From: a virus
IMG/VR virus record: IMGVR_UViG_3300013010_000039
Span: 1-32,693 of that record
Strand: one strand, 5' to 3'
DNA: 32,693 bases
The notes beneath the pieces are model-generated. The model ran no database searches and was not told the DNA's origin. It saw only the letters and a program-made list of their open reading frames with translations. This document shows positions 14,368-32,584 of this stretch, piece after piece (positions within the stretch are counted from its first letter, which is position 1; every line of letters begins with the position of its first letter). The translations under genes were made by a program, and so were the position numbers.

Positions 14368-16563
14368 TTACTCCTTGCTACTTAGTGGATGACCTTCTGG
14401 CAAAAGGTCTGTATCGAACTTTCCACTATTAAAGCGCCCTGTGCGAACTGCGCTAAGAAAGCCATTAACACGGGCATAGGCCCATTGGTCAGGACCAGTT
14501 ACATTTGGCCGGACGCTTTGAGGGTTTGTATTATAAGCGCCAACACCACGGGCAAACACAGCTTCGAGCATACGCTGAGTAACCCGCTTGCCCTTTTTAT
14601 CACCATGCTTTTCATTGTGATCTTTTACTTTCTCAGCGAGAGCCTTTTTTACAGCCTCACTGATCTTTGGGGCTTTCTCTTCCGCTGGAGGTAATTTTTC
14701 ATCCCACCAATCACTGAAATAAGTTTCAAGCTCTTCCGACTTATCCCGTTCTTTGTCTAACTGATCTACTTTTCGATTAGCCCATGATTGGCCTTCGTCA
14801 CCGCCCCAGCCAAGCCATGCTATCTTTCCGGGACTAGGGTATCCAGACTCGCCGCGATTAAATCCTTCAGCCTGTTTGTCTACTTCGTGACGGGCAAAAA
14901 AGCTCTTCATCCGGCGAACTGTATCAGGAGAAAGGCGCTGACGATTGACAAGCTGATTGGCACGGGCAACGCCTACACGGGTCATTCCCCGACCAAATTC
15001 CTTGCGCATATCAAGTGCGCGTTGACCATTTATAGCCATCGCCTCAGTAGGAACTGTATCTACATCACTCTCAGCTTTGCCAGACGTTTCAATTTCAGCT
15101 TCCCACTTTGCACAAACATATTGGGCGCGAACATCAGCATCAAAAAGTGAACAATATCCTTGGTCATAATGGTCACAATTTCCACAGCGCTTCTCACTAG
15201 TGCCCATCTGGTAAGCATCTGGAAGGCTGTCTGGTACATCTGCACCGTCTGGATATTTATCCAGCTTAAACTCGCCATAGGCATCCGCACCATCACTTGC
15301 GGCTTTATCACCCTCTGAGGGGGCTACCTCTGGGCCGCCTAGCGGGAAAAGGTTCGCCGCTATAAATACTTCATCACCGCCTTGGATCGGCCCTAGACCC
15401 AACCTATCACGGGCTTCATTGCGACTAATAATACCCTCACGAACCGCAGAAGTAACATTCTCATATATCCGGCGGCGGCGCTCAGTCATGGCTGGGATGC
15501 TGTCAATATCATACTCAATACGGATATCATCACCGAATGATGGTGCCAGCCATTCGTTTAAATCACTACAGACCCGCATTGCCAGCGGGATTATAGTCTC
15601 TTCATATAACGCCAAACGAGCCTCTTGGACGTTTGCATAAGTTTGGCTGTCTGGAATACCAATAAGCTGCGAGGGAATACCAAAGCAAAGCGCAATGTCT
15701 TTTGCGGCCATATGCTTTTGTTGCAAGAAATCCATGTCACGCGGGGACATTCCCATTTCTTTCCAATCGAAATCGCCTTCCAATAACATTGGTTTTCCAC
15801 TGTTAGCAGTACCGCTCATACGACGATTGATATCATCTTGGACTTGCTTTCTTTGCATTTCAGAAAGAGTCATAGTATTTCCAGAAGTGTCGGTTGGCTT
15901 GAAAATGACAGCCCCTGTAGGACGCGCACCATTAACCAATAATGCAATGTTATGCTTTGCTATCAAATTGTGTTGATCTACATCAATGGAAGCTGCCATA
16001 AGTGGAGAAAGCCCAAGGTAATCGTCCATTGGGTTCCATAGCTTGAAGTGTTTAACTTCAGATTGGCCTGTAAACGGGTCAGCATCGTATGTTTTTACAA
16101 CCTTCCCATTTAACTTATAACTGTAACCTTTTGGAATTGCAGTATTGCTGGGCATTATTTCGACCCGATCAGGTCTTAGAAGATGCAGTTCAGATGGGAC
16201 ACCTCCCGCCGTGCTGCTAATCGCATAGCTATTTCCTGAAAGTAATAAGAACGCATAGAGAGACTGGAAGTATTCATTGCCAGCTTGAAGCGGGTTTGGA
16301 CGTTTAAGTAGAGAGATCAACGGATGCTGTTCAAGCTCAACATTTCCTTGGAATACCTTGAACCCAATAGCAGACGCACCTTGCGCAATCTCATTAACAC
16401 AACGGTAAACTATTGCGTTTTGCTGATAGCCTTCGACCGCATAAGACTTAAAGTTATCAGATCGGTTGTGGTAGGGTGTTGTATGTTGGACATGAATACT
16501 TGGAGCCTCTTTAAATTCCATAGGCATTGCTACTGTTTTGCGAAAAAAATCCAAAAGGGCCAT
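14368..16563 (-). CDS. Portal protein with long multi-domain C-terminal extension
   Basis: 731 residues. Residues 1 to about 405 are an HK97-family portal: VEGYQQNAIVYRCVNEIAQG, LLLSGNSYAI, HLLRPDRVEIMP, GIPSQLIG, and the closing SRNEARDRLGLGPIQGGDEV. Three further parts follow. At about 458-486 is a Cys cluster (CGNC, GYC, VCAKW; spacing C-x2-C-x7-C-x12-C). At about 514-600 is a block with LDMRKEFGRG, SFFARHEVDKQAEGF and GWGGDEGQSWANRKV. At about 625-731 is a block with AVFARGVGAYNTNPQSVRPN and DTDLLPEGHPLS. The last two recur in marine phage proteins. Most HK97 portals are 400-500 residues, so this is an unusual fusion. The start overlaps the TerL stop. Confidence 0.92.
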   Translation of the reverse strand: MALLDFFRKTVAMPMEFKEAPSIHVQHTTPYHNRSDNFKSYAVEGYQQNAIVYRCVNEIAQGASAIGFKVFQGNVELEQHPLISLLKRPNPLQAGNEYFQSLYAFLLLSGNSYAISSTAGGVPSELHLLRPDRVEIMPSNTAIPKGYSYKLNGKVVKTYDADPFTGQSEVKHFKLWNPMDDYLGLSPLMAASIDVDQHNLIAKHNIALLVNGARPTGAVIFKPTDTSGNTMTLSEMQRKQVQDDINRRMSGTANSGKPMLLEGDFDWKEMGMSPRDMDFLQQKHMAAKDIALCFGIPSQLIGIPDSQTYANVQEARLALYEETIIPLAMRVCSDLNEWLAPSFGDDIRIEYDIDSIPAMTERRRRIYENVTSAVREGIISRNEARDRLGLGPIQGGDEVFIAANLFPLGGPEVAPSEGDKAASDGADAYGEFKLDKYPDGADVPDSLPDAYQMGTSEKRCGNCDHYDQGYCSLFDADVRAQYVCAKWEAEIETSGKAESDVDTVPTEAMAINGQRALDMRKEFGRGMTRVGVARANQLVNRQRLSPDTVRRMKSFFARHEVDKQAEGFNRGESGYPSPGKIAWLGWGGDEGQSWANRKVDQLDKERDKSEELETYFSDWWDEKLPPAEEKAPKISEAVKKALAEKVKDHNEKHGDKKGKRVTQRMLEAVFARGVGAYNTNPQSVRPNVTGPDQWAYARVNGFLSAVRTGRFNSGKFDTDLLPEGHPLSSKE

Positions 16564-17810
16564 TAGCTAATTCTCCACGCTGGCTGTCCGGTAGACGCGC
16601 TCAATTCTGTTAAGGCCCACACTAGGGCGTCCATTCGATCTGGGGACTTTCGAGAGTTTGGTGTATAAGATACCATCTGATCCTCAAGTTCCTTGTGTGT
16701 GCCGACATGATGGACTTTGCCTTGCTCGTACAATGCCGCAATCGGTTCCGCTCTTACTAACTTACCACGAGAAGCATGAACTTTCGAGTAAGGAATATTC
16801 CTATCTATAGTTCTTATCACTCTTTCGACCAAATCTCCACCGTTATTGACCTCTGCAATCAGTCTATCGGCTTCATGGGAATAAAAACATTCAATTGCCC
16901 TCCTAGCCCATCCATCCGGTGTATTTTTGTGTGAAGCGTCTTCTAATACATAATATCGGTTATTATTGCATCTAGCTGCGACAACAATCCCTGTTTCATC
17001 ACTATCTTCATTGTTAGTTACGCTTGGATCAATTGCTACTACAATCCTGTTAAATTCAGGCAAATTCATTTTATCAATTCTAGTTCTTTCAATAGAACTG
17101 TAATTCCAAAGCGCACCCTCAAGATCGTCCAAAACCTCCCCGTAAAGCTCCTGACGCCCCAGTCGGGTTCCTTCATATTTTTCTTTTAGCTGCGCAACAG
17201 CAGTTTCAGAAAGGTTTTTAGCATTATCAAATGTGCTTCCTCTCGTAATTATTGTGTTTGTTCTTTTTACTAGAGACCTCGTTAAATCATTCGGGGCGGG
17301 TGTTGTTGTAATTACACACTGAGGATTTTCTCCAAGACGAAGGCCAAACATTAATTGGTCAAATGCGTCTGGGTATTGCCATGCAGCGATTTCGTCACAC
17401 CAAGCCCTATGAAACTGAGGGCCGCGAAGGCGTTTAGGCTCAATAGCGGCAAAACCCTGAATAATTGATCCATTGTAAAGCCTAATTTCAGCGGCAGAGC
17501 TTGAGTAACCCTGCCCACGCCCCTTCAGAAGACAATCATCTGGTAGCCAGTTCATAATTCCCGATACGCCGCCAAAAGCAACTCTTCTCAAATCACCAAA
17601 TGTTGGGGTTACAACAGCACAACGGCTCTCTGGGTTATTCAAGGCATAGATCATTGTATCAAATGCCCCAACCATGGTCTTGCCCCATCCACGACCAGCC
17701 AAAATAAGCCACACGCCCCAATCACCCTTTGGGGTCAACTGCTGGGGACGGGCCATTTTGAGCCAATTACTGTAAAGTGTGCTGTGCGCTTGATGACTTG
17801 GCTGTGGCAA
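16563..17810 (-). CDS. Terminase large subunit
   Basis: The ATPase has Walker A in LILAGRGWGKT, Walker B in RAWCDEIAAW, and the coupling region TTTPAPNDLTRSL. The nuclease has VVAIDPSVTNNEDSDETG and the late Asp in DRMDALVWALTEL. It cuts concatemeric DNA and pumps it into the prohead through the portal. The frame is open back to 17924, but the first 158 bases would overlap terS. The conserved NWLKMARPQQLTPKGDW lies just past the overlap, so a start around the TTG at 17810 is preferred; an ATG at 17756 would cut the conserved block. The start is uncertain, the function is not. Confidence 0.93.
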   Translation of the reverse strand: MPQPSHQAHSTLYSNWLKMARPQQLTPKGDWGVWLILAGRGWGKTMVGAFDTMIYALNNPESRCAVVTPTFGDLRRVAFGGVSGIMNWLPDDCLLKGRGQGYSSSAAEIRLYNGSIIQGFAAIEPKRLRGPQFHRAWCDEIAAWQYPDAFDQLMFGLRLGENPQCVITTTPAPNDLTRSLVKRTNTIITRGSTFDNAKNLSETAVAQLKEKYEGTRLGRQELYGEVLDDLEGALWNYSSIERTRIDKMNLPEFNRIVVAIDPSVTNNEDSDETGIVVAARCNNNRYYVLEDASHKNTPDGWARRAIECFYSHEADRLIAEVNNGGDLVERVIRTIDRNIPYSKVHASRGKLVRAEPIAALYEQGKVHHVGTHKELEDQMVSYTPNSRKSPDRMDALVWALTELSASTGQPAWRIS

Positions 17811-18387
17811 GCTTGTCCAGCTCTTCGATAACCTCTCGTAAGCTGTCTGGTGCTGTAACATTTGCTGATACCTTGCTAATTTCTTGAGCTTGACCAAGAG
17901 CCAATTTACCAATTCTCTGTGCATTGCTTACTGTATTTGAAATCCCACTCATATCGTGAGGTGTCAATATCTTTGATGTAAGCCTGAATTTTTCAAGTGC
18001 CGCATCCCTGTCAGGCCCATTGTCCATTTGAGCAATGGCTTCAAGCTGTGATCTATCTTGAATGTCTTTATTCATGCGGCGACCAGCATCACCCAGCATA
18101 GCGAGTGCAATTTTTATTGCATCATCATCAAGCCTTGCCCCATAATCTACCATTTTCTGCAACCGCTCTCTAGTTACAGCGTTCTCATATTCAGTTTGGA
18201 TTTTGTTTTTTTGGCTTTGCCAGTCCTCTGATTGAGACCTCCTGTGCAAAGACGCATAAGCAACATCATGGCGCTTTGAAAGGGCTTGAACAGTAGGGTA
18301 TTTACGGACGCCATTTTCATCAACGAATCCATGCACGAATTCATCTTTTATCTTCAGTTTAAGAGCTTCATCAATCTTGTTGGTCAT
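17767..18387 (-). CDS. Terminase small subunit (candidate)
   Basis: 206 residues from ATG 18387; a GTG at 18414 would add nine and overlap the previous gene. An N-terminal HTH is suggested by YPTVQALSKRHDVAYASLHR and RSQSEDW, as in small terminases that recognise the packaging site. A long charged helical region and a C-terminal segment follow (DSLREVIEELDKLATAKSSS). It overlaps terL by 44 bases with the preferred start. The call rests on HTH, length and position directly before terL. Confidence 0.75.
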   Translation of the reverse strand: MTNKIDEALKLKIKDEFVHGFVDENGVRKYPTVQALSKRHDVAYASLHRRSQSEDWQSQKNKIQTEYENAVTRERLQKMVDYGARLDDDAIKIALAMLGDAGRRMNKDIQDRSQLEAIAQMDNGPDRDAALEKFRLTSKILTPHDMSGISNTVSNAQRIGKLALGQAQEISKVSANVTAPDSLREVIEELDKLATAKSSSAQHTLQ

Positions 18388-18400
18388 GTCCTCACCATTA

Positions 18401-18820
18401 TCATATATTTTCACTACTATCCAGTATTAGCTTTCTCAACCTTGTTGTAGACCAATTATGATGTCTTTTATTAAAATAAACATTTATTGGAAAATCATAG
18501 CCAGTAAATTTTTTTTCCCTATATTCTTCCCCTATAATTCTAACATCAATTGGGAGTGCTGATAGCAGGTGCAGAAGCTCATATTCTGTTGAATAGCAAA
18601 TGACCTCATCAATATATTTTACAGCATTTAATTGTATCTGTCTTTCCATTAATGTTTGAATTGGTTTGTTCTTTTCGGGCCTATCTATAGATGGGTCGAT
18701 CTGCAATCCAACAATCAAATATTCACACACAGATTTCGCCTCTTGCAGCATGGTTATATGCCCAGAGTGCAAAAGATCAAAACATGATGCAGTAAAGCCT
18801 ATTTTATATTTCTTGTTCAT
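18401..18820 (-). CDS. Cytidylyltransferase-like nucleotidyltransferase (TagD/GCT type)
   Basis: A 139-residue protein. GFTASCFDLLHSGHITML holds the HxGH motif (residues 18-21), MERQIQLNAVKYIDEVICYS the central part, and NWSTTRLRKLI the STTxxR motif. These are the hallmarks of the glycerol-3-phosphate cytidylyltransferase group, which makes CDP- or similar nucleotide-linked small alcohols or sugars. Full length for the family. Its start overlaps the end of the ParB/IbrB-like gene by 17 bases and it ends 13 bases before terS. The substrate cannot be read from the sequence. Confidence 0.85.
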   Translation of the reverse strand: MNKKYKIGFTASCFDLLHSGHITMLQEAKSVCEYLIVGLQIDPSIDRPEKNKPIQTLMERQIQLNAVKYIDEVICYSTEYELLHLLSALPIDVRIIGEEYREKKFTGYDFPINVYFNKRHHNWSTTRLRKLILDSSENI

Positions 18821-19475
18821 CCTGATATTTTTTCTTTATGAGGATTTGTTGCTTAGTAACCCAAGCCTTTTTGTACTCGGTATTTTCAAACAACTTCGAG
18901 AAGCCAGTTATGTGCTTGAGGCGCAATAGCTCTTCCGGCTCCATCCCAAGGTGATTGCAGATGTCTGCATCCTTCCAACCCTGTTCCAGCATTGAGAATA
19001 CCATATTAGCCATACCATCAACGCTGTGTGAGCCTCTGGCCCTGTTATGGCGCACTGTAGCTGCCATCCGCTCGTTTATGTCTTTCTCTATTACAACGAT
19101 AGGTAAGCGGCCGTGGTTGCGATCCATGATGTCCTGATTGCTTTTGCAAGTAAAATATCTGTGGAAGCCATCAACTATTACGAATTTATCAAGCTCTTCA
19201 TCATAGATAGTTACTACAGGCTGAGTATAACCATCGTGCTTGATTGAGGTATATAGGAGCTTCATTTCTGCGCCAGCTACACTATTGGGATTATAGTCAT
19301 TTGCTTGTACGAGATCAATATCAACCCACATCACCTGACCTACTGGTTGCTGGATTGGGTGCATTTCTTGAAGCTCAATCTTTAAGTCTTCTAAATAGTC
19401 AATTTTTTCTTGGTCCGAAAAAAGTTCTATTTCCTTGCGAATATGATCCGCGTTCGTTCCCCATGGCTCAGACAT
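18804..19475 (-). CDS. ParB-domain protein, IbrB-like
   Basis: A 223-residue protein. Residues 45-130 form the ParB/sulfiredoxin-type domain: MWVDIDLVQANDYNPNSVAG, KHDGYTQPVVTIYD, then FVIVDGFHRYFTCK where ParB normally has GERR/GHGR. TVRHNRARGSHSVDGMANMV follows and a helical C-terminus. The Arg-rich 'RHNRARG' block is typical of the IbrB group, which occurs next to IbrA-type PP-loop proteins, as here. Such ParB domains can act as nucleases, CTP-binding DNA clamps or transcription factors; which applies is unknown. The start overlaps ibrA-like by eight bases. Confidence 0.8.
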   Translation of the reverse strand: MSEPWGTNADHIRKEIELFSDQEKIDYLEDLKIELQEMHPIQQPVGQVMWVDIDLVQANDYNPNSVAGAEMKLLYTSIKHDGYTQPVVTIYDEELDKFVIVDGFHRYFTCKSNQDIMDRNHGRLPIVVIEKDINERMAATVRHNRARGSHSVDGMANMVFSMLEQGWKDADICNHLGMEPEELLRLKHITGFSKLFENTEYKKAWVTKQQILIKKKYQDEQEI

Positions 19476-20631
19476 TTACTGGTATCCAATCTTTGTGTTC
19501 TGATTTGTTTACAAATTTCATATCGCCACGCTTCCACCTTCTAAAAGTAATTGCATATGGGCTTTGTTCAAAATTACTGACTTTTGTAAAATCAATATCT
19601 TGAGCCAATATTGTTGTGACGTGAACTTTATGTAGCTTTGAAGGGTCTTTGATTAGCGCATAATCCTTGTCCATTTTTGCGAACTTCTTGCGCATGGCCT
19701 CCTGGTACTCCGGATCGGTAACAAGATTTACCAATAGATGATCTCTGTATTCTTTCCAATCCTTGAACATATATGGTAATTTTTTGGCTTGGAACATATC
19801 CTCTTTGCTCATGTGACGAGCCTGATTTACCCCATCCAAACGCTTAACCAGCTTATTCCATGTATCCCGCTCAATCTCCTGTAAATAGAACAATTGATGC
19901 ACAGCTGTTTCATGGTGAAGATTTGAAACCCGCATTTTTGTAGGGCTTACACCATATTGATAAAAATAATCGTACGCTTTTGCGTACTGCCAGTTATGGT
20001 CAAAGATGCTCTTCCAAATATCTGTATATGACCAATCATAGAGTGGGTAAAAATTGTAATGACCTCTTTTCTTATCTACAGCCTTTCCCCAAGTAACCCA
20101 TTTATAGGTTGCTGCGGTAGTTAATCCAGCAAGACGCGCTGGGCTTTCCTCAGCCCTAACACCCGCCAGAACAGCAAGCCTTTGGTCAGGCCAATGGTGC
20201 TTCATAATAGCTGGGAACATTTCATAGAAGCGATCTTTGCCATATACATTTTCTGTAATTGCAAAATCTTCTTTTGGACGCATCCAGTTTTCATCATCAC
20301 CCTCAGTCCAGCAGTGAAGATAATGCTGTTCATTAGATGTTGAATTTGTCATTTTTATTGGCACTTGGAACCACATCGGCTCAATGCGCGGATCAGTCAT
20401 TACATCCCGAACATAATCAATTACGTTCTGCCATTCAGCTTCTTGGTCAAGAAACATAACCTTCAATGGAAGGCGTCCCATTTCTTCCGCTACTATAAGG
20501 GCAATATTAAGGGTTACTGTGCTGTCTTTACCACCTGAGAAAGACACAACAACCTCTTCAAATTCGTTAAAAATATATCTGACACGCTCTAATGCAGCGT
20601 CCCAAACATTATCCTTGAGTTGTATTTTCAT
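19468..20631 (-). CDS. PP-loop ATPase, PAPS reductase-like with DUF3440-type C-terminus (IbrA-like)
   Basis: 387 residues. EVVVSFSGGKDSTVTLNIAL (about residues 27-46) is the PP-loop of PAPS reductase/ATP-pyrophosphatase proteins. VMFLDQEAEWQNVIDYVRDV follows as in DUF3440 relatives, then VRAEESPARLAGL and YPLYDWSYTDIWKSI. The C-terminal region is long and helical. Relatives adenylate substrates or handle sulfur (PAPS reductase, DndC), but the IbrA group has no settled reaction. It forms an overlapping pair with the IbrB-like gene and follows a methyltransferase-like gene by a 23-base overlap. Confidence 0.85.
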   Translation of the reverse strand: MKIQLKDNVWDAALERVRYIFNEFEEVVVSFSGGKDSTVTLNIALIVAEEMGRLPLKVMFLDQEAEWQNVIDYVRDVMTDPRIEPMWFQVPIKMTNSTSNEQHYLHCWTEGDDENWMRPKEDFAITENVYGKDRFYEMFPAIMKHHWPDQRLAVLAGVRAEESPARLAGLTTAATYKWVTWGKAVDKKRGHYNFYPLYDWSYTDIWKSIFDHNWQYAKAYDYFYQYGVSPTKMRVSNLHHETAVHQLFYLQEIERDTWNKLVKRLDGVNQARHMSKEDMFQAKKLPYMFKDWKEYRDHLLVNLVTDPEYQEAMRKKFAKMDKDYALIKDPSKLHKVHVTTILAQDIDFTKVSNFEQSPYAITFRRWKRGDMKFVNKSEHKDWIPVNV

Positions 20632-21202
20632 CCATTAACATCCTTAAAACTGAAATGCAGTGAGCGTCATAGTCCGAAGCAACAAAGGTATTCCCCTTTT
20701 TTGCTTTTTTAAAATGCAAGACTGGCAATCCATAACCGCAAGTGATATCACCCATTCGCTTGTAGGTTTGACCAAGATACTCACACAGCTCTAAGTTCGT
20801 CAGACCCTCTGGAACTTCTATTCCCCAACAGCTTAAAGGTGTCCAGTGACCATTGAGCTTTACAGTTATATACTGATCTGGCTCTGGTAAATATTTCTCT
20901 AACTTCTTGTTAGTAATTGCTAACTTTGGCTTATCTACTATCTTGTCCCAAAGGCGACGAAACCCTTGGGCAAAGTCATTATAAGATGATGTTTTTTCTT
21001 TCGCGCGTTCATCAAATACTTTGATACCTGCGGGAAATGGTGGTTCACAATAAATAACGTCACACGCATCTAATTCGTCAAAGTATCCCTCACTTATAAT
21101 ATTGCGCCTACGCCCTATGCAGCCCTGATATTCAAACCTTTGCGTTGGTGGCATACCCTGAAATTGCTTGGTTCCATTTTTCAAAGCTGAGTTATAAATC
21201 AT
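20609..21202 (-). CDS. Small circularly permuted methyltransferase-like protein
   Basis: A 197-residue protein. CDVIYCEPPFPAGIKVF near residue 50 resembles motif IV (D/S/N-PP-Y/F) of amino-methyltransferases. Near the C-terminus, RMGDITCGYGLPVLHF looks like the SAM-binding motif I (DPFCGSG) and FVASDYDAHCISVLRML like the following acidic motif. Motif IV before motif I is the permuted beta-type order. There is no room for a large target-recognition domain. It may modify DNA or be a fold relative with another role. Coupled to the glycosyltransferase gene by ATGA. Confidence 0.6.
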   Translation of the reverse strand: MIYNSALKNGTKQFQGMPPTQRFEYQGCIGRRRNIISEGYFDELDACDVIYCEPPFPAGIKVFDERAKEKTSSYNDFAQGFRRLWDKIVDKPKLAITNKKLEKYLPEPDQYITVKLNGHWTPLSCWGIEVPEGLTNLELCEYLGQTYKRMGDITCGYGLPVLHFKKAKKGNTFVASDYDAHCISVLRMLMDENTTQG

Positions 21203-21960
21203 GTCATTAACGCCTTTCTCTTATTAAGGTGAACGCTCTTTGCGTATGAAGTAAGTTCTGAACCCGATGGAATATGATAACCGCCCTTTGCGTCTCTTTT
21301 TAGGGATATGTATTCTGGGTCTGGCAGCTTTATATTACTACTAATTACCCAAGACTTTCGCCCCCCCGATGAAAGTATCTTATGTATTGCCAAACTTCCC
21401 AAATATCTTATGTTTTGATAACCATTGAGATAGGAAGCCAGTGACCATTCTGTATTGTCACACCAATAATCTTTCTTTCCTAACTCAATAATCTTTCTTG
21501 CGATAACACTATCAAAAATCATACCTCCTGCCGTATATACTATGTGCTGTTTTACTATCTCGGGCTTTATCTTTTTAGACATAAGCATTTTCTCTGATCT
21601 GACCCAGTTTCCAGATACTATCCCAACACCTTTTTGCTGCGCTAACTCTGCCATTGCATCGAAATTTGTAATTGGCAAAAACTTCATATCGTCATCTATT
21701 GACGCGACAACATAGTCTGATGCAATGCTATCTATCTCTTGCAATGCAATACGCTTTGCGTTGTGCATACCAATTTTTTCATCACACCAAATCAGTCTAG
21801 ACCCGCTTGGGACGAGATTTGCAATTTTTACTTTTCTTTCATCTGAAAATTCTTGGCCGACAAGCACAAGTCGCCAACCCTCCAAATGCGACAGAGAGCA
21901 AAGACAGTCGTGCAAAAGTTCTTTTCGATTGTCTACGCAAGCCAAAACCAGAAACTTCAT
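21199..21960 (-). CDS. GT-A fold glycosyltransferase (family 2-like)
   Basis: 253 residues from ATG 21960, which overlaps the previous stop (TAATG). The frame extends upstream but the longer start is unneeded. MKFLVLACVDNRKELLHDCL is the typical first strand and helix, VVASIDDDMKF carries the DxD metal-binding motif, and KKDYWCDNTEWSLASYLNGY fits the acceptor region. It should transfer a sugar from a nucleotide donor. Acceptor candidates are DNA bases, virion proteins or host glycans. The methyltransferase-like and ParB neighbours make DNA worth considering; this is inference. Confidence 0.8.
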   Translation of the reverse strand: MKFLVLACVDNRKELLHDCLCSLSHLEGWRLVLVGQEFSDERKVKIANLVPSGSRLIWCDEKIGMHNAKRIALQEIDSIASDYVVASIDDDMKFLPITNFDAMAELAQQKGVGIVSGNWVRSEKMLMSKKIKPEIVKQHIVYTAGGMIFDSVIARKIIELGKKDYWCDNTEWSLASYLNGYQNIRYLGSLAIHKILSSGGRKSWVISSNIKLPDPEYISLKRDAKGGYHIPSGSELTSYAKSVHLNKRKALMT

Positions 21961-22235
21961 TAATCTCTTGCTCTGTTTATAAGGTTTTCTTTTTCTGGCG
22001 ACCACATGAGCCAATAAATCCAACCATCTAACTTATAATATTTTCTTGGCGTTCCTACCATATTTCTAAGTTTACCGTATTTATTGACAGCTTTGCCCGT
22101 CCATACAAATTCATTGGGATCGTCCCATGTTTTTTTTAATGTATAGAAATGGGGTAAAGTTTTAGCATAGGTCTTTGCGAACTTATACTCTGCATTTCTG
22201 AGGTTGTGCGCTAATCTGATTAAATCCTCGTTCAT
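21960..22235 (-). CDS. Small aromatic-rich protein, unknown function
   Basis: 91 residues from ATG 22235, two bases after the ParB stop. Upstream TTG extension is possible but overlaps ParB. It contains NEFVWTGKAVNKYGKLRNMV and YKLDGWIYWLMWSPEKENLI followed by NRARD, with many Tyr and Trp. The tight packing between ParB and glycosyltransferase genes implies that it works with them. No family is recognised with confidence. Confidence 0.55.
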   Translation of the reverse strand: MNEDLIRLAHNLRNAEYKFAKTYAKTLPHFYTLKKTWDDPNEFVWTGKAVNKYGKLRNMVGTPRKYYKLDGWIYWLMWSPEKENLINRARD

Positions 22236-22236
22236 A

Positions 22237-22812
22237 TTATTTACCCGTAAAAACAAATATTTCAGCGCAATGTGGGCATATTACCTCAGTACCCTCTTGA
22301 CCCTTGATCCGATCACTCATGTCTTGATCCATCCGGTCACTTGCCTTTTCCATCTTGCTGTCATCAATTTCTGAAGCGTCAAATTTAGGATCAAGAACTG
22401 GATTATAATTAAAGGCAGATAGGTCAATATCTACTCCCATAAGTCCAAGATCATAACCATCGTTAGCCATCTCTTTCAATTGAACGAAATATTCATTTGT
22501 ATCCCACTGACCATTTTCAGCCAGTTTATTGTCAGCTATTACATAAGCCTTTTTTTGTTGTTCGGTCCAATCCCTTGCAGTCATGCAAGGAACCTCAGAC
22601 AACTCAAGCTCTTTTGCTGCGAACAATCGCCCATGACCTGCAAGTACTTGGTCATTTTCATCAATTAAAATTGGAATAGTCCAACCCCATTCACGAATAC
22701 TATTAGCAAGCTGTTTTATCTGTGTGTCTGGATGAATTTTAGGGTTCCTGTCATAAGGGATAAGGTCATCAACCTTGCGATTTTCTACACTATTTGCAGC
22801 CCAATTTTCCAT
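22237..22812 (-). CDS. ParB-like nuclease-domain protein with C-terminal zinc ribbon
   Basis: A 191-residue protein. VDDLIPYDRNPKIHPDTQIK, SIREWGWTIPILIDENDQVL and AGHGRLFAAKEL give a clean phage-type ParB N-terminal domain (GHGR in place of GERR). AYVIADNKLAENGQWD follows, as in ParB proteins that in other phages are fused to or precede DNA methyltransferases. The C-terminus has CPHC, probably half of a metal-binding ribbon. It is the first gene of the long minus-strand operon to terL and portal, behind a sigma70-like promoter. Confidence 0.85.
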   Translation of the reverse strand: MENWAANSVENRKVDDLIPYDRNPKIHPDTQIKQLANSIREWGWTIPILIDENDQVLAGHGRLFAAKELELSEVPCMTARDWTEQQKKAYVIADNKLAENGQWDTNEYFVQLKEMANDGYDLGLMGVDIDLSAFNYNPVLDPKFDASEIDDSKMEKASDRMDQDMSDRIKGQEGTEVICPHCAEIFVFTGK

Positions 22813-22889: not shown

Positions 22890-22917
22890 CCCCTCTCCGA
22901 TTGGGGACGGAGAGGGG
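22890..22917 (-). terminator. Strong GC hairpin upstream of the ParB operon
   Basis: CCCCTCTCCG and CGGAGAGGGG pair perfectly over ten bases around an eight-base loop. On the minus strand the stem is followed by TTTATTAATT, so it would end transcripts coming from the replication genes on the right before the ParB promoter. Confidence 0.75.
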
Positions 22918-27209: not shown

Positions 27210-27512
27210 ATGTGGTCAAACCCCAAAAAACCAAAGGAAAAGAAAGATGGAAACTATCTGCAAGAGGTGCGGAGGAAGAGGTGTTGTATTTGTGAGCAAT
27301 TTGGAGAAGTCCAGCAGAGCCCAACAACGGCGCACCACCCGATACATGATCGGTTTTCTCGTGCGAAGCGAGGCGACAGAACTGCGATCCCGCTTTGCGA
27401 GGGTCATCACCAAGGTCTTTGGGATAAAAGCAAAGTAGCCATTCACAAAGAGCCTAAGAAATGGCGTGAACTTTATGGCGCTGACTGGGAATACTCTAGT
27501 AACAGATCATAA
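27210..27512 (+). CDS. HNH nuclease, Ref/DUF968-like
   Basis: A 100-residue basic protein. RRKRCCICEQFGEVQQSPTT, then AHHPIHDRF, then DRTAIPLCEGHHQGLW and AIHKEPKKWRELYGADWEY. The two Cys, the AHH pair and the C-x-x-HH end form a beta-beta-alpha metal finger as in phage recombination-linked HNH nucleases (P1 Ref, DUF968). Its start codon lies in the last unit of the repeat array. Its last 40 bases overlap the convergent phosphomannomutase-like gene. Nicking or cutting of phage recombination intermediates is likely. Confidence 0.75.
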   Translation: MWSNPKKPKEKKDGNYLQEVRRKRCCICEQFGEVQQSPTTAHHPIHDRFSRAKRGDRTAIPLCEGHHQGLWDKSKVAIHKEPKKWRELYGADWEYSSNRS

Positions 27513-28195
27513 GTTTCTCGCCAATCATTAACCTGATGCACATGATCTAGGTTTTTAGCTAATGGATAATCGTTACCACCCTTTTGCGTCTGATCGCCAA
27601 AAAATACTGCTGTGCTTGGATCATGTAAGTATTTCAAGGTTTTTTTCTTTGATATATTGCTATGGCTTATATCAATTCCAGTTTGTCCTGCTATCCTTGC
27701 TACGGCCTTTGCACCCATCTTATTATTAAATTTGGAACAGATATTCTTGCGTTCACCTGAAACCATATCCCAAGCTATATATTGCTTCCTCTGTATTGAA
27801 GAATAATTCTTTCCAAGAATACTAAAATTGCACATTCCAACCCTTTCATCAAAATGATGCCCCGTTTTGAATGGGAATTTACTGCCGTGCAAAAAATCTT
27901 CTAAATATTTTTTGTTAAATTTACTGAGTGTAAAACAAGATTTGGAAATTTCTCTTCCCTGTTTCAATACATGCCCACCGCCAGAGTTAATCATATACTC
28001 CGCAGCCATACAAATATCGTTACCAAGCTGACGCACTGTTGTTTGATAAGCTGCGCCCGTAACTATGTAGCATTTATTATTAAGGAAAAAATTGTGCAAA
28101 AATTTCCGAAAACTTGGCTCAATACCCAATGAACTTTCTACTAAAGTTCCATCGACATCAAAGATGAATTGGTTCATCCCACTGTATTTTGACAT
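27473..28195 (-). CDS. HAD-family phosphomannomutase-like protein
   Basis: 240 residues from ATG 28195 with AGGAGGAG seven bases upstream. FIFDVDGTLVESS is HAD motif I (Asp nucleophile), CYIVTGAA motif II, SKKKTLKYL motif III and VFFGDQTQKGGNDYPLAKNL motif IV. RVGMCNFSILGKNYSSIQRK resembles the substrate-binding loop of eukaryote-type phosphomannomutases. It would interconvert hexose phosphates or act as a sugar phosphatase. This could feed sugars to the glycosyltransferase in the 21-kb region. Overlaps RusA at its start and HNH at its end. Confidence 0.75.
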   Translation of the reverse strand: MSKYSGMNQFIFDVDGTLVESSLGIEPSFRKFLHNFFLNNKCYIVTGAAYQTTVRQLGNDICMAAEYMINSGGGHVLKQGREISKSCFTLSKFNKKYLEDFLHGSKFPFKTGHHFDERVGMCNFSILGKNYSSIQRKQYIAWDMVSGERKNICSKFNNKMGAKAVARIAGQTGIDISHSNISKKKTLKYLHDPSTAVFFGDQTQKGGNDYPLAKNLDHVHQVNDWRETYDLLLEYSQSAP

Positions 28196-31969: not shown

Positions 31970-32584
31970 TCAATTAAGCCATTCATAAACTTTATTTGTT
32001 TCTTTTATGCGATGGTCTAGACCAGTATATCCACCATTTATTTTTCTGGTCAGACGTTTGATTGCGTCATCATTAACACCTTCGTCACATATTTTCCAAA
32101 GATCGTTAGATTGGAAAAACCAAATGGCTGTATCCATGGCATAATCTTCTTCTAAAAGTGAAGGGTCTTCCATAACTTCAGGTTTGCCCATATCACTAGC
32201 GAAGGCTCTTACGTTGTTATATCCGGTCAATTGTAAAAATCCTCGCCCGATGTATAGGCTGGCTTTTTCTTTAGTATCGTTACCCATTCGTCCGAAATAC
32301 ACATTTTCAGCAAGCGCCTTGGGGTTTCTGGCGTATGGCTCTGCGCTTTCTTCTGTTGGGAAGCGGCTGGGCCATACCTTCATCATAGCCTCAACGCTAT
32401 AGTTCAAGTTTTCACGCACATAACGAAATGTACCAGATTCATGGATAACTTGACCTAAAAGGTGCGCTCCGCGCTCTGGTGACAGATCATAGTGCTTTAC
32501 GATCCCACGGGCGGTATTTGGACCAAAACTTCCGTCTGGTGAACATCCACATTTTTCTTGCAGAATTTTTAGTGCGTTACTCAT
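31970..32584 (-). CDS. Endolysin, glycoside hydrolase family 19-like
   Basis: 204 residues. A short N-terminal peptidoglycan-binding-like segment (ALKILQEKCGCSPDGSFGPN) precedes the catalytic domain, which has LGQVIHESGTFRYVRENLNY (catalytic Glu), YIGRGFLQLTGYNN and the late RLTRKINGGYTGLDHR. GH19 phage lysins cut the glycan strands of peptidoglycan at lysis. No signal peptide is visible, so a holin is required. A Gly-rich ribosome site (AAGGTGG) precedes the ATG. Confidence 0.93.
   Translation of the reverse strand: MSNALKILQEKCGCSPDGSFGPNTARGIVKHYDLSPERGAHLLGQVIHESGTFRYVRENLNYSVEAMMKVWPSRFPTEESAEPYARNPKALAENVYFGRMGNDTKEKASLYIGRGFLQLTGYNNVRAFASDMGKPEVMEDPSLLEEDYAMDTAIWFFQSNDLWKICDEGVNDDAIKRLTRKINGGYTGLDHRIKETNKVYEWLN

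Follow-up and report, generated by a model that had tools for sequence, protein, structure and literature searches.

A phage gene cassette with an IbrA/IbrB-type core and an exchangeable tailoring slot, joined to the packaging operon: a candidate DNA hypermodification system

The virus record IMGVR_UViG_3300013010_000039 of IMG/VR is a complete record of 32,693 bases, the whole of which was analysed here and is called the window. It carries a cassette of seven genes, among them two ParB genes and a PP-loop gene, that an earlier note on this DNA, made from the sequence alone, had described as a single set running into the genes for the small terminase subunit (terS), the large terminase subunit (terL) and the portal protein. 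All seven reported open reading frames (ORFs) were present at the positions reported and on the minus strand, and together with the packaging genes they form one overlapping run that leads from ParB1 (22812) through terS and terL to the portal gene. The features of this run, in the order of transcription, are as follows:

22890..22917, minus strand: terminator-like hairpin with a 10-pair stem, from a consensus scan only
22237..22812, minus strand: ParB1, ParB N-terminal domain with an AGHGR motif and a single CPHC pair
21960..22235, minus strand: P2, core-associated domain of 91 amino acids with the motif AKT..PH.Y...Y.YW.M...INR
21199..21960, minus strand: P3, GT-A-like putative glycosyltransferase (GT) with an invariant DDD motif
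20609..21202, minus strand: P4, small permuted amino-methyltransferase-like protein with an EPPF motif, in the exchangeable tailoring slot
19468..20631, minus strand: P5, PP-loop (SGGKDS) ATP-pyrophosphatase with PAPS_reduct and DUF3440 regions, IbrA-like, core enzyme
18804..19475, minus strand: P6 (ParB2), IbrB-like, with DGFHR and HNRARG motifs, core
18401..18820, minus strand: P7, cytidylyltransferase-like nucleotidyltransferase with an HSGH motif, HldE-domain-II/TagD-like, optional
17767..18414, minus strand: gene in the terS position, small terminase subunit by position, no family match
16563..17924, minus strand: terminase large subunit, by family match
14368..16563, minus strand: portal protein, by family match

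The start of P2 was corrected to the ATG at 22235 (91 amino acids) and that of P3 to the ATG at 21960 (253 amino acids), in both cases in place of an upstream TTG, and the P3 start overlaps the P2 stop as TAATG. The junctions downstream of P2/P3 overlap by 4, 23, 8, 17 and 14 bases. A strong terminator-like hairpin (22917-22890, minus strand) lies between the upstream DnaD-type genes and ParB1, and the cassette is therefore probably a unit apart from those genes. The note had the run start from one promoter; a consensus promoter scan gave matches at the chance level of shuffled sequence. Comparison of the window with locus L001 gave dN/dS values of 0.03-0.18 for ParB1, the PP-loop gene, ParB2 and P7.

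The gene neighbourhoods of relatives were surveyed in viral contigs and in the genomes of species. The 80 highest-scoring relatives of two queries were sampled, and 90 distinct relatives (no more than 97% protein identity) were obtained, an identity filter that removes relatedness among loci only in part; architectures were called with small home-made profiles. ParB1, P2, the PP-loop gene and ParB2 make up a core that is conserved in these 90 distinct loci, and because its order recurs so widely, and in view of the dN/dS values above, the arrangement is not a chance one. A lack of conserved co-occurrence in related phages would have refuted the note; the core genes do occur together, in the 90 distinct loci. 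In every locus with room (85/85) the PP-loop gene is followed by ParB2, usually with a gap of -4 to -11 bp. Upstream sequence sufficed in 66 loci, of which 64 have ParB1 and 53 have P2.

Directly before the PP-loop gene lies a slot that holds one of four families per locus: an EPPF methyltransferase of the window P4 family (12 loci), an oxygenase-like protein with an HxD..H motif (12), a GNAT (18) or a class-I methyltransferase that is usually fused to P2 (12). These families exclude each other, since only 2 loci contain at least two of them when 12.3 would be expected (P<1e-4), and the same holds when the set is reduced to 32 representatives whose P5 identity is below 60% (2 against 6.6 expected, P=0.001). 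A GT-like gene is present in 38 of the 66 loci and a methyltransferase with a DPPW motif in 27. The DPPW proteins match the Pfam family N6_N4_Mtase, either below threshold or at the cut-off, and the class-I methyltransferases of relatives match the UbiE, BioC and CpaM models. The latter had been candidates for CmoA-like carboxy-S-adenosylmethionine (Cx-SAM) synthases, a proposal that we dropped because the matched models are not CmoA.

Between close relatives the slot is exchanged as a unit. Up to the end of ParB1 the DNA of loci L005 and L006 is 92.8% identical, and identity resumes at 95% with the first base of the PP-loop gene; the 1.4-1.6 kb in between, which encode a GT with an EPPF methyltransferase in one locus and a GT with an oxygenase-like protein in the other, are without similarity. 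L006 and L008 show the same exchange boundaries. In these swap comparisons the flanking proteins are 93-99% identical and P2 is 33-34% identical. The exchange is, in other words, a clean cassette swap. In L203 a P3-family domain and the PP-loop enzyme are parts of one ORF of 644 amino acids.

ParB1 matches PF02195 at 27.4 bits (cut-off 26.3) and phrog_620 (E 6e-46). Homology links it to the ParB portion of phage proteins in which ParB is fused to a DNA methyltransferase (phrog_498, E 5e-43), and it matches the MTase_II model of PADLOC (E 7e-31). The description of this protein as a GHGR-type ParB with a zinc ribbon is borne out for the ParB domain, but the ribbon amounts to one CPHC pair, which is below the Pfam cut-off. 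P2, P3 and P4 have no match among curated families. The AlphaFold2 (AF2) model of P2 is confident (pLDDT 91.8), and searches of the PDB for P2 gave nothing below E 0.08 by fold and nothing significant by sequence. In L031, L035, L107, L116 and other loci P2 is fused to class-I methyltransferases, and in L034 to a GNAT; we therefore infer that P2 is most plausibly the adaptor by which the core connects to the tailoring side. The similarity of P2 also tracks slot class beyond the core, weakly (26/2000 permutations) and mainly at P5 identity above 60%, and was kept out of the main evidence. Three other occurrences of P2 were observed: a single ORF (L104:5991-7004) in which P2 is found together with a SET domain and an integrase arm-type DNA-binding domain and which adjoins a gene for S-adenosylmethionine (SAM) decarboxylase; a stand-alone P2-domain protein beside McrBC and WYL genes on the Butyrivibrio proteoclasticus plasmid pCY186 (L261:5956-6291); and a second such copy (L260:5968-6282) on megaplasmids of Rhizobium leguminosarum. 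Bacterial restriction/modification contexts may be a further setting of P2.

Phages often acquire accessory genes in the region ahead of terS. The cassette could accordingly be a chance run of unrelated auxiliary genes at an insertion hot spot that precedes the terminase, and the cytidylyltransferase gene, which is optional and relocated in L041, behaves as such a run would predict. We regard this as very improbable for the cassette as a whole in view of the core adjacency (85/85), the frequency of ParB1 (64/66) and P2 (53/66), the exclusivity of the slot families (P<1e-4) and the gene fusions.

By family and adjacency, P5 and P6 are an IbrA/IbrB pair, as had been recognized before. P5 matches PF01507 at 60.5 bits (cut-off 22.5, E 3e-16) and phrog_2302 (E 2e-84), and its DUF3440 tail, also correctly noted, matches PF11922 at 33.6 bits (cut-off 25, E 4e-8); P6 matches phrog_2159 (E 1e-70). 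The two proteins match more than 200 phage records, where IbrA/IbrB appear as 'PAPS reductase' plus 'ParB', and a tblastn search of isolated phages with window P3 and P4 gave no match. Profile comparison relates ParB2 to ParB/Noc CTPases and, at a weak level, to free serine kinases. A SerK-like serine kinase role for P6 was considered and rejected, the likeness being one of profiles only (PDB E about 1e-3) and the NCBIfam score being far below the cut-off. Two variants of the pair were observed among isolated phages. In Mycobacterium phage Gaia, gp104 (L057:5611-6510), directly after a PAPS-reductase-like gene, is a ParB2 whose annotation gives a fusion with an ectoine-synthase-like (cupin) domain, possibly another tailoring fusion; in Arthrobacter phage Laroye (L053) and Bacillus phage 055SW001 (L063) a small methyltransferase gene immediately follows the PP-loop and ParB2 genes or lies between them, so that the core is arranged differently.

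Across the PP-loop family there is no invariant cysteine position, the best column reaching 72% of 98 sequences; a wider PP-loop alignment (A3) proved too diverse to be scanned for patterns. The missing invariant cysteine argues against chemistry of the DndC, TtcA or PAPS-reductase kind and fits an adenylation-type ligation such as that of TilS or AsnB, the AsnB synthetases being members of the PP-loop superfamily. The note had allowed for a sulfur-linked group, and a PAPS-reductase-like protein that puts sulfur into DNA, as phosphorothioate or thio-base in the manner of Dnd, Ssp and BREX type 4, would agree with the PF01507 match and with the weak profile similarity of P5 to DndC (PADLOC E 2e-5) and BrxP (PADLOC E 8e-10). 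However, the cysteines required for catalysis by CysH, and for the dyad and the Fe-S site of DndC, are not invariant, P5 reaches 19-21 bits as a PAPS reductase (CysH; cut-offs 154-165) and 16.1 of 290.4 bits as DndC, and neither DndA/D/E-like genes nor a desulfurase gene were seen in the cassette neighbourhoods. Sulfur chemistry is therefore disfavoured, and we consider it improbable.

A different role is suggested by phage annotations, which give P5/P6-type pairs the name 'co-activator of prophage gene expression IbrA/IbrB'. The PP-loop and ParB2 proteins could form a regulator or counter-defence module that controls host or phage expression or neutralizes defence, with the slot genes as separate morons. 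The known context of IbrA/IbrB in E. coli, which has to do with immunoglobulin-binding genes, is in line with regulation (PMC4541368), and gene-expression co-activation is the only function that has been described for the pair; we found no tested function of IbrA/IbrB in the open-access literature. Unlinked morons would not, however, overlap the core, be fused with it, exclude one another and swap at precise boundaries, as the slot genes do, and we hold this explanation to be rather unlikely, if less so than sulfur chemistry.

The proteins that fill the remaining positions in the window differ in how well they can be assigned. P4 aligns with the DPPW methyltransferases of related cassettes (hhalign probability 95%, E 2e-8), which confirms a permuted amino-methyltransferase-like fold. 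Its 19 distinct family members all have a CGYG-type motif (SAM-binding motif I), in the permuted motif order, and none has DPP; P4 itself carries EPPF in place of the catalytic D/NPPY motif, and its family is of the EPPF type. The P3 family has an invariant DDD motif in a GT-A-like layout, and profile tests returned no family match, an hhalign probability of 1.5% to GTm and a weak PDB match to chondroitin synthase (E 0.2). P7 matches PF01467 at 50.8 bits (cut-off 21, E 3e-13) and has the HSGH motif, in agreement with its earlier identification as an HxGH cytidylyltransferase; the specific heptose and glycerol-3-phosphate models were not reached. The P7 gene is a clean insertion between ParB2 and terS, by whose presence L006 and L005 differ. 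A cytidylyltransferase is found in 5 of 19 related records and sits after the portal gene in L041. P7 is an optional local addition, and P3 and P4 sit in the exchangeable slot; the idea that the seven genes form one fixed set does not hold.

In relatives, other enzymes occupy the slot or lie next to it. The HxD..H motif is present in 15 of 16 oxygenase-like slot proteins, and their AF2 model is a double-stranded beta-helix (pLDDT 89). Of the 12 loci with a gene of the 2-oxoglutarate-dependent oxygenase (2OGDO) type, 11 also have a GT gene (p=0.009), as would be expected for hydroxylation followed by glycosylation. SAM decarboxylase genes are present in 6/66 cassettes and belong to at least two types, one matching PF02675 (E 5e-12 to 5e-14 in three) and the second matching phrog_3125 (E 2e-18 to 2e-20 in two tested members). 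Those located inside PP-loop/ParB cassettes include:

L200:4239-4607
L203:2217-2585
L205:3023-3391
L033:6990-7385
L137:5671-6045

A DPPW methyltransferase is also found in 4/6 of the SAM decarboxylase cassettes, an association that is not significant (p=0.22). Phage SAM decarboxylases have otherwise been tied to polyamines (PMC9992855); those in the cassettes could instead provide an aminopropyl donor that serves DNA.

We found no described system with this gene set in the open-access literature, in agreement with the earlier note. The closest parallel is CmoX/CmoY of Synechococcus phage S-B43, which places a SAM-derived handle on phage cytosine and joins glycine to it by an asparagine-synthetase-like ligase; ParBc genes are frequent in CmoX/CmoY contigs (PMC12783734). 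As in that system, a putative SAM-dependent handle enzyme and a candidate ATP-dependent ligase occur here in phage DNA with ParBc proteins nearby, and in some cassettes an enzyme that makes a SAM analogue is present (SpeD, in place of CmoA). There are also clear differences. The methyltransferases described here are of the permuted amino type (EPPF/DPPW) and not of the C5 type of CmoX, the ATPase is IbrA/DUF3440-like and not asparagine-synthetase-like as in CmoY, no CmoA was recognized, and the exchangeable slot, P2 and the terminase linkage come in addition. Partnership of a ParB-superfamily ATPase with a modifying enzyme is likewise known for DpdB, a ParB-like ATPase in deazaguanine DNA modification (PMC12839542), and for DndB, with DndC as a PP-loop enzyme. 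In contrast to these systems, no tRNA-guanine transglycosylase (DpdA) and no DndA/D/E were seen in the cassettes, and the PP-loop family lacks an invariant Cys. Serratia phage eta, which has a ParB homologue and was once reported to contain a modified guanine, was discarded as a precedent, its DNA being without modified bases (PMC3918226).

On balance we think it somewhat probable that the cassette serves late, post-replicative DNA hypermodification, its core being fixed and its tailoring enzymes plugging into a slot, and that it works like CmoX/CmoY and is built from an IbrA/IbrB pair. That the target is DNA is suggested by the DPPW proteins, the DNA-methyltransferase kin of ParB1, the link to the terminase and the analogy with CmoX/CmoY and DpdB. 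Both the target and the attached chemical product are predictions from these likenesses. Of the earlier proposal, a modification cassette joined to the packaging operon is retained and DNA is a plausible target, but the system is not a fixed seven-gene one, and nothing points to the virion as a target.

Several observations weigh against DNA hypermodification. We found no nucleoside analysis of any carrier in the open-access literature, so that DNA is a predicted target. The putative assignment of P3 as a glycosyltransferase, which comes from its DDD motif and its position, is weakly supported. The column of the PP-loop family that is richest in cysteine has it in 72% of sequences, and in Streptococcus, Lactobacillus and Flavobacterium phages the PP-loop/ParB2 pair occurs without recognizable tailoring genes; unlike the cassettes described here, these pairs also lack a recognizable ParB1 and P2. 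The best PDB matches of the oxygenase-like model are AspH and prolyl hydroxylases (E 1.5e-4, TM 0.37-0.47), its 2-oxoglutarate matches thus being amino-acid or protein hydroxylases, and some cupins match too. One class-I methyltransferase resembles a tRNA-methyltransferase phrog. The last two findings are what would be expected if the same core-plus-tailoring logic served a non-DNA target, such as RNA (tRNA included) or a protein of the virion or the host, as is the SET domain within one P2 ORF. PP-loop enzymes are, moreover, classic tRNA modifiers (TilS, TtcA and ThiI). However, the two ParB proteins, the DPPW proteins with their likeness to DNA N6/N4-methyltransferases, the kin of ParB1 and the terminase linkage point to DNA, and we regard a non-DNA target as unlikely, although less so than any other alternative weighed here.

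If DNA hypermodification is the function, ParB1 and ParB2 would bring the enzymes to DNA and spend nucleoside triphosphate, in the way that has been suggested for DpdB, a ParB-like ATPase. Adenylation by the PP-loop enzyme would activate an oxygen (of a carboxylate or a base carbonyl) for the joining of a nitrogen nucleophile, a chemistry of the ligase, TilS or AsnB type rather than a thiolation. A P2-linked enzyme would then finish the group. In the window this could be the permuted methyltransferase P4 with the GT-like P3, and P7, from which an activated donor may come in this lineage of phages, could take part in the last decoration. In other phages the last step could be hydroxylation with glycosylation, acylation or class-I methylation. 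The cassette would be expressed with the packaging genes, and the decorated DNA, once packaged, would resist host nucleases; that the slot is exchanged fast is consistent with an arms race in which the outermost chemical group is at stake. A more specific scheme, which we offer tentatively and consider unlikely to be right in full, is that an IbrA-type PP-loop ligase and its ParB partners install a nitrogen-linked DNA group that is finished by interchangeable P2-linked enzymes and that, in the SpeD variants, decarboxylated SAM lets a DPPW-type enzyme transfer aminopropyl rather than methyl to a base, creating an amine handle.

The division into core and slot gives IbrA/IbrB a concrete chemical hypothesis and, if true, makes hydroxylation with glycosylation, acylation and aminopropylation likely new phage DNA modifications. 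Isolated carriers make the DNA hypothesis testable. One of them, Microbacterium phage Hendrix, encodes GT-like gp154 and gp155, a P2-like domain plus methyltransferase (gp156), a GNAT (gp157) and a PP-loop protein (gp158), and has ParB genes gp1-3 followed by terL (gp5). The slot of Hendrix is of the GNAT/class-I-methyltransferase kind, whereas that of the window holds the EPPF methyltransferase, and no cytidylyltransferase was seen in the gp154-158/gp1-3 stretch. We found no function study of Hendrix gp154-158 and gp1-3.

Two genes elsewhere in the window were also noted. At 27473-28195 on the minus strand, downstream of a RusA resolvase gene, lies a gene for a HAD-family protein with a match to eukaryotic-type phosphomannomutase (PF03332, E 3e-17). 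It was considered as a sugar-donor partner of P3/P7 and dropped because it is absent from the 19 related virus records. At 31970-32584 on the minus strand, a weak match to chitinase class I/GH19-like proteins (E 2e-4) marks a possible endolysin.

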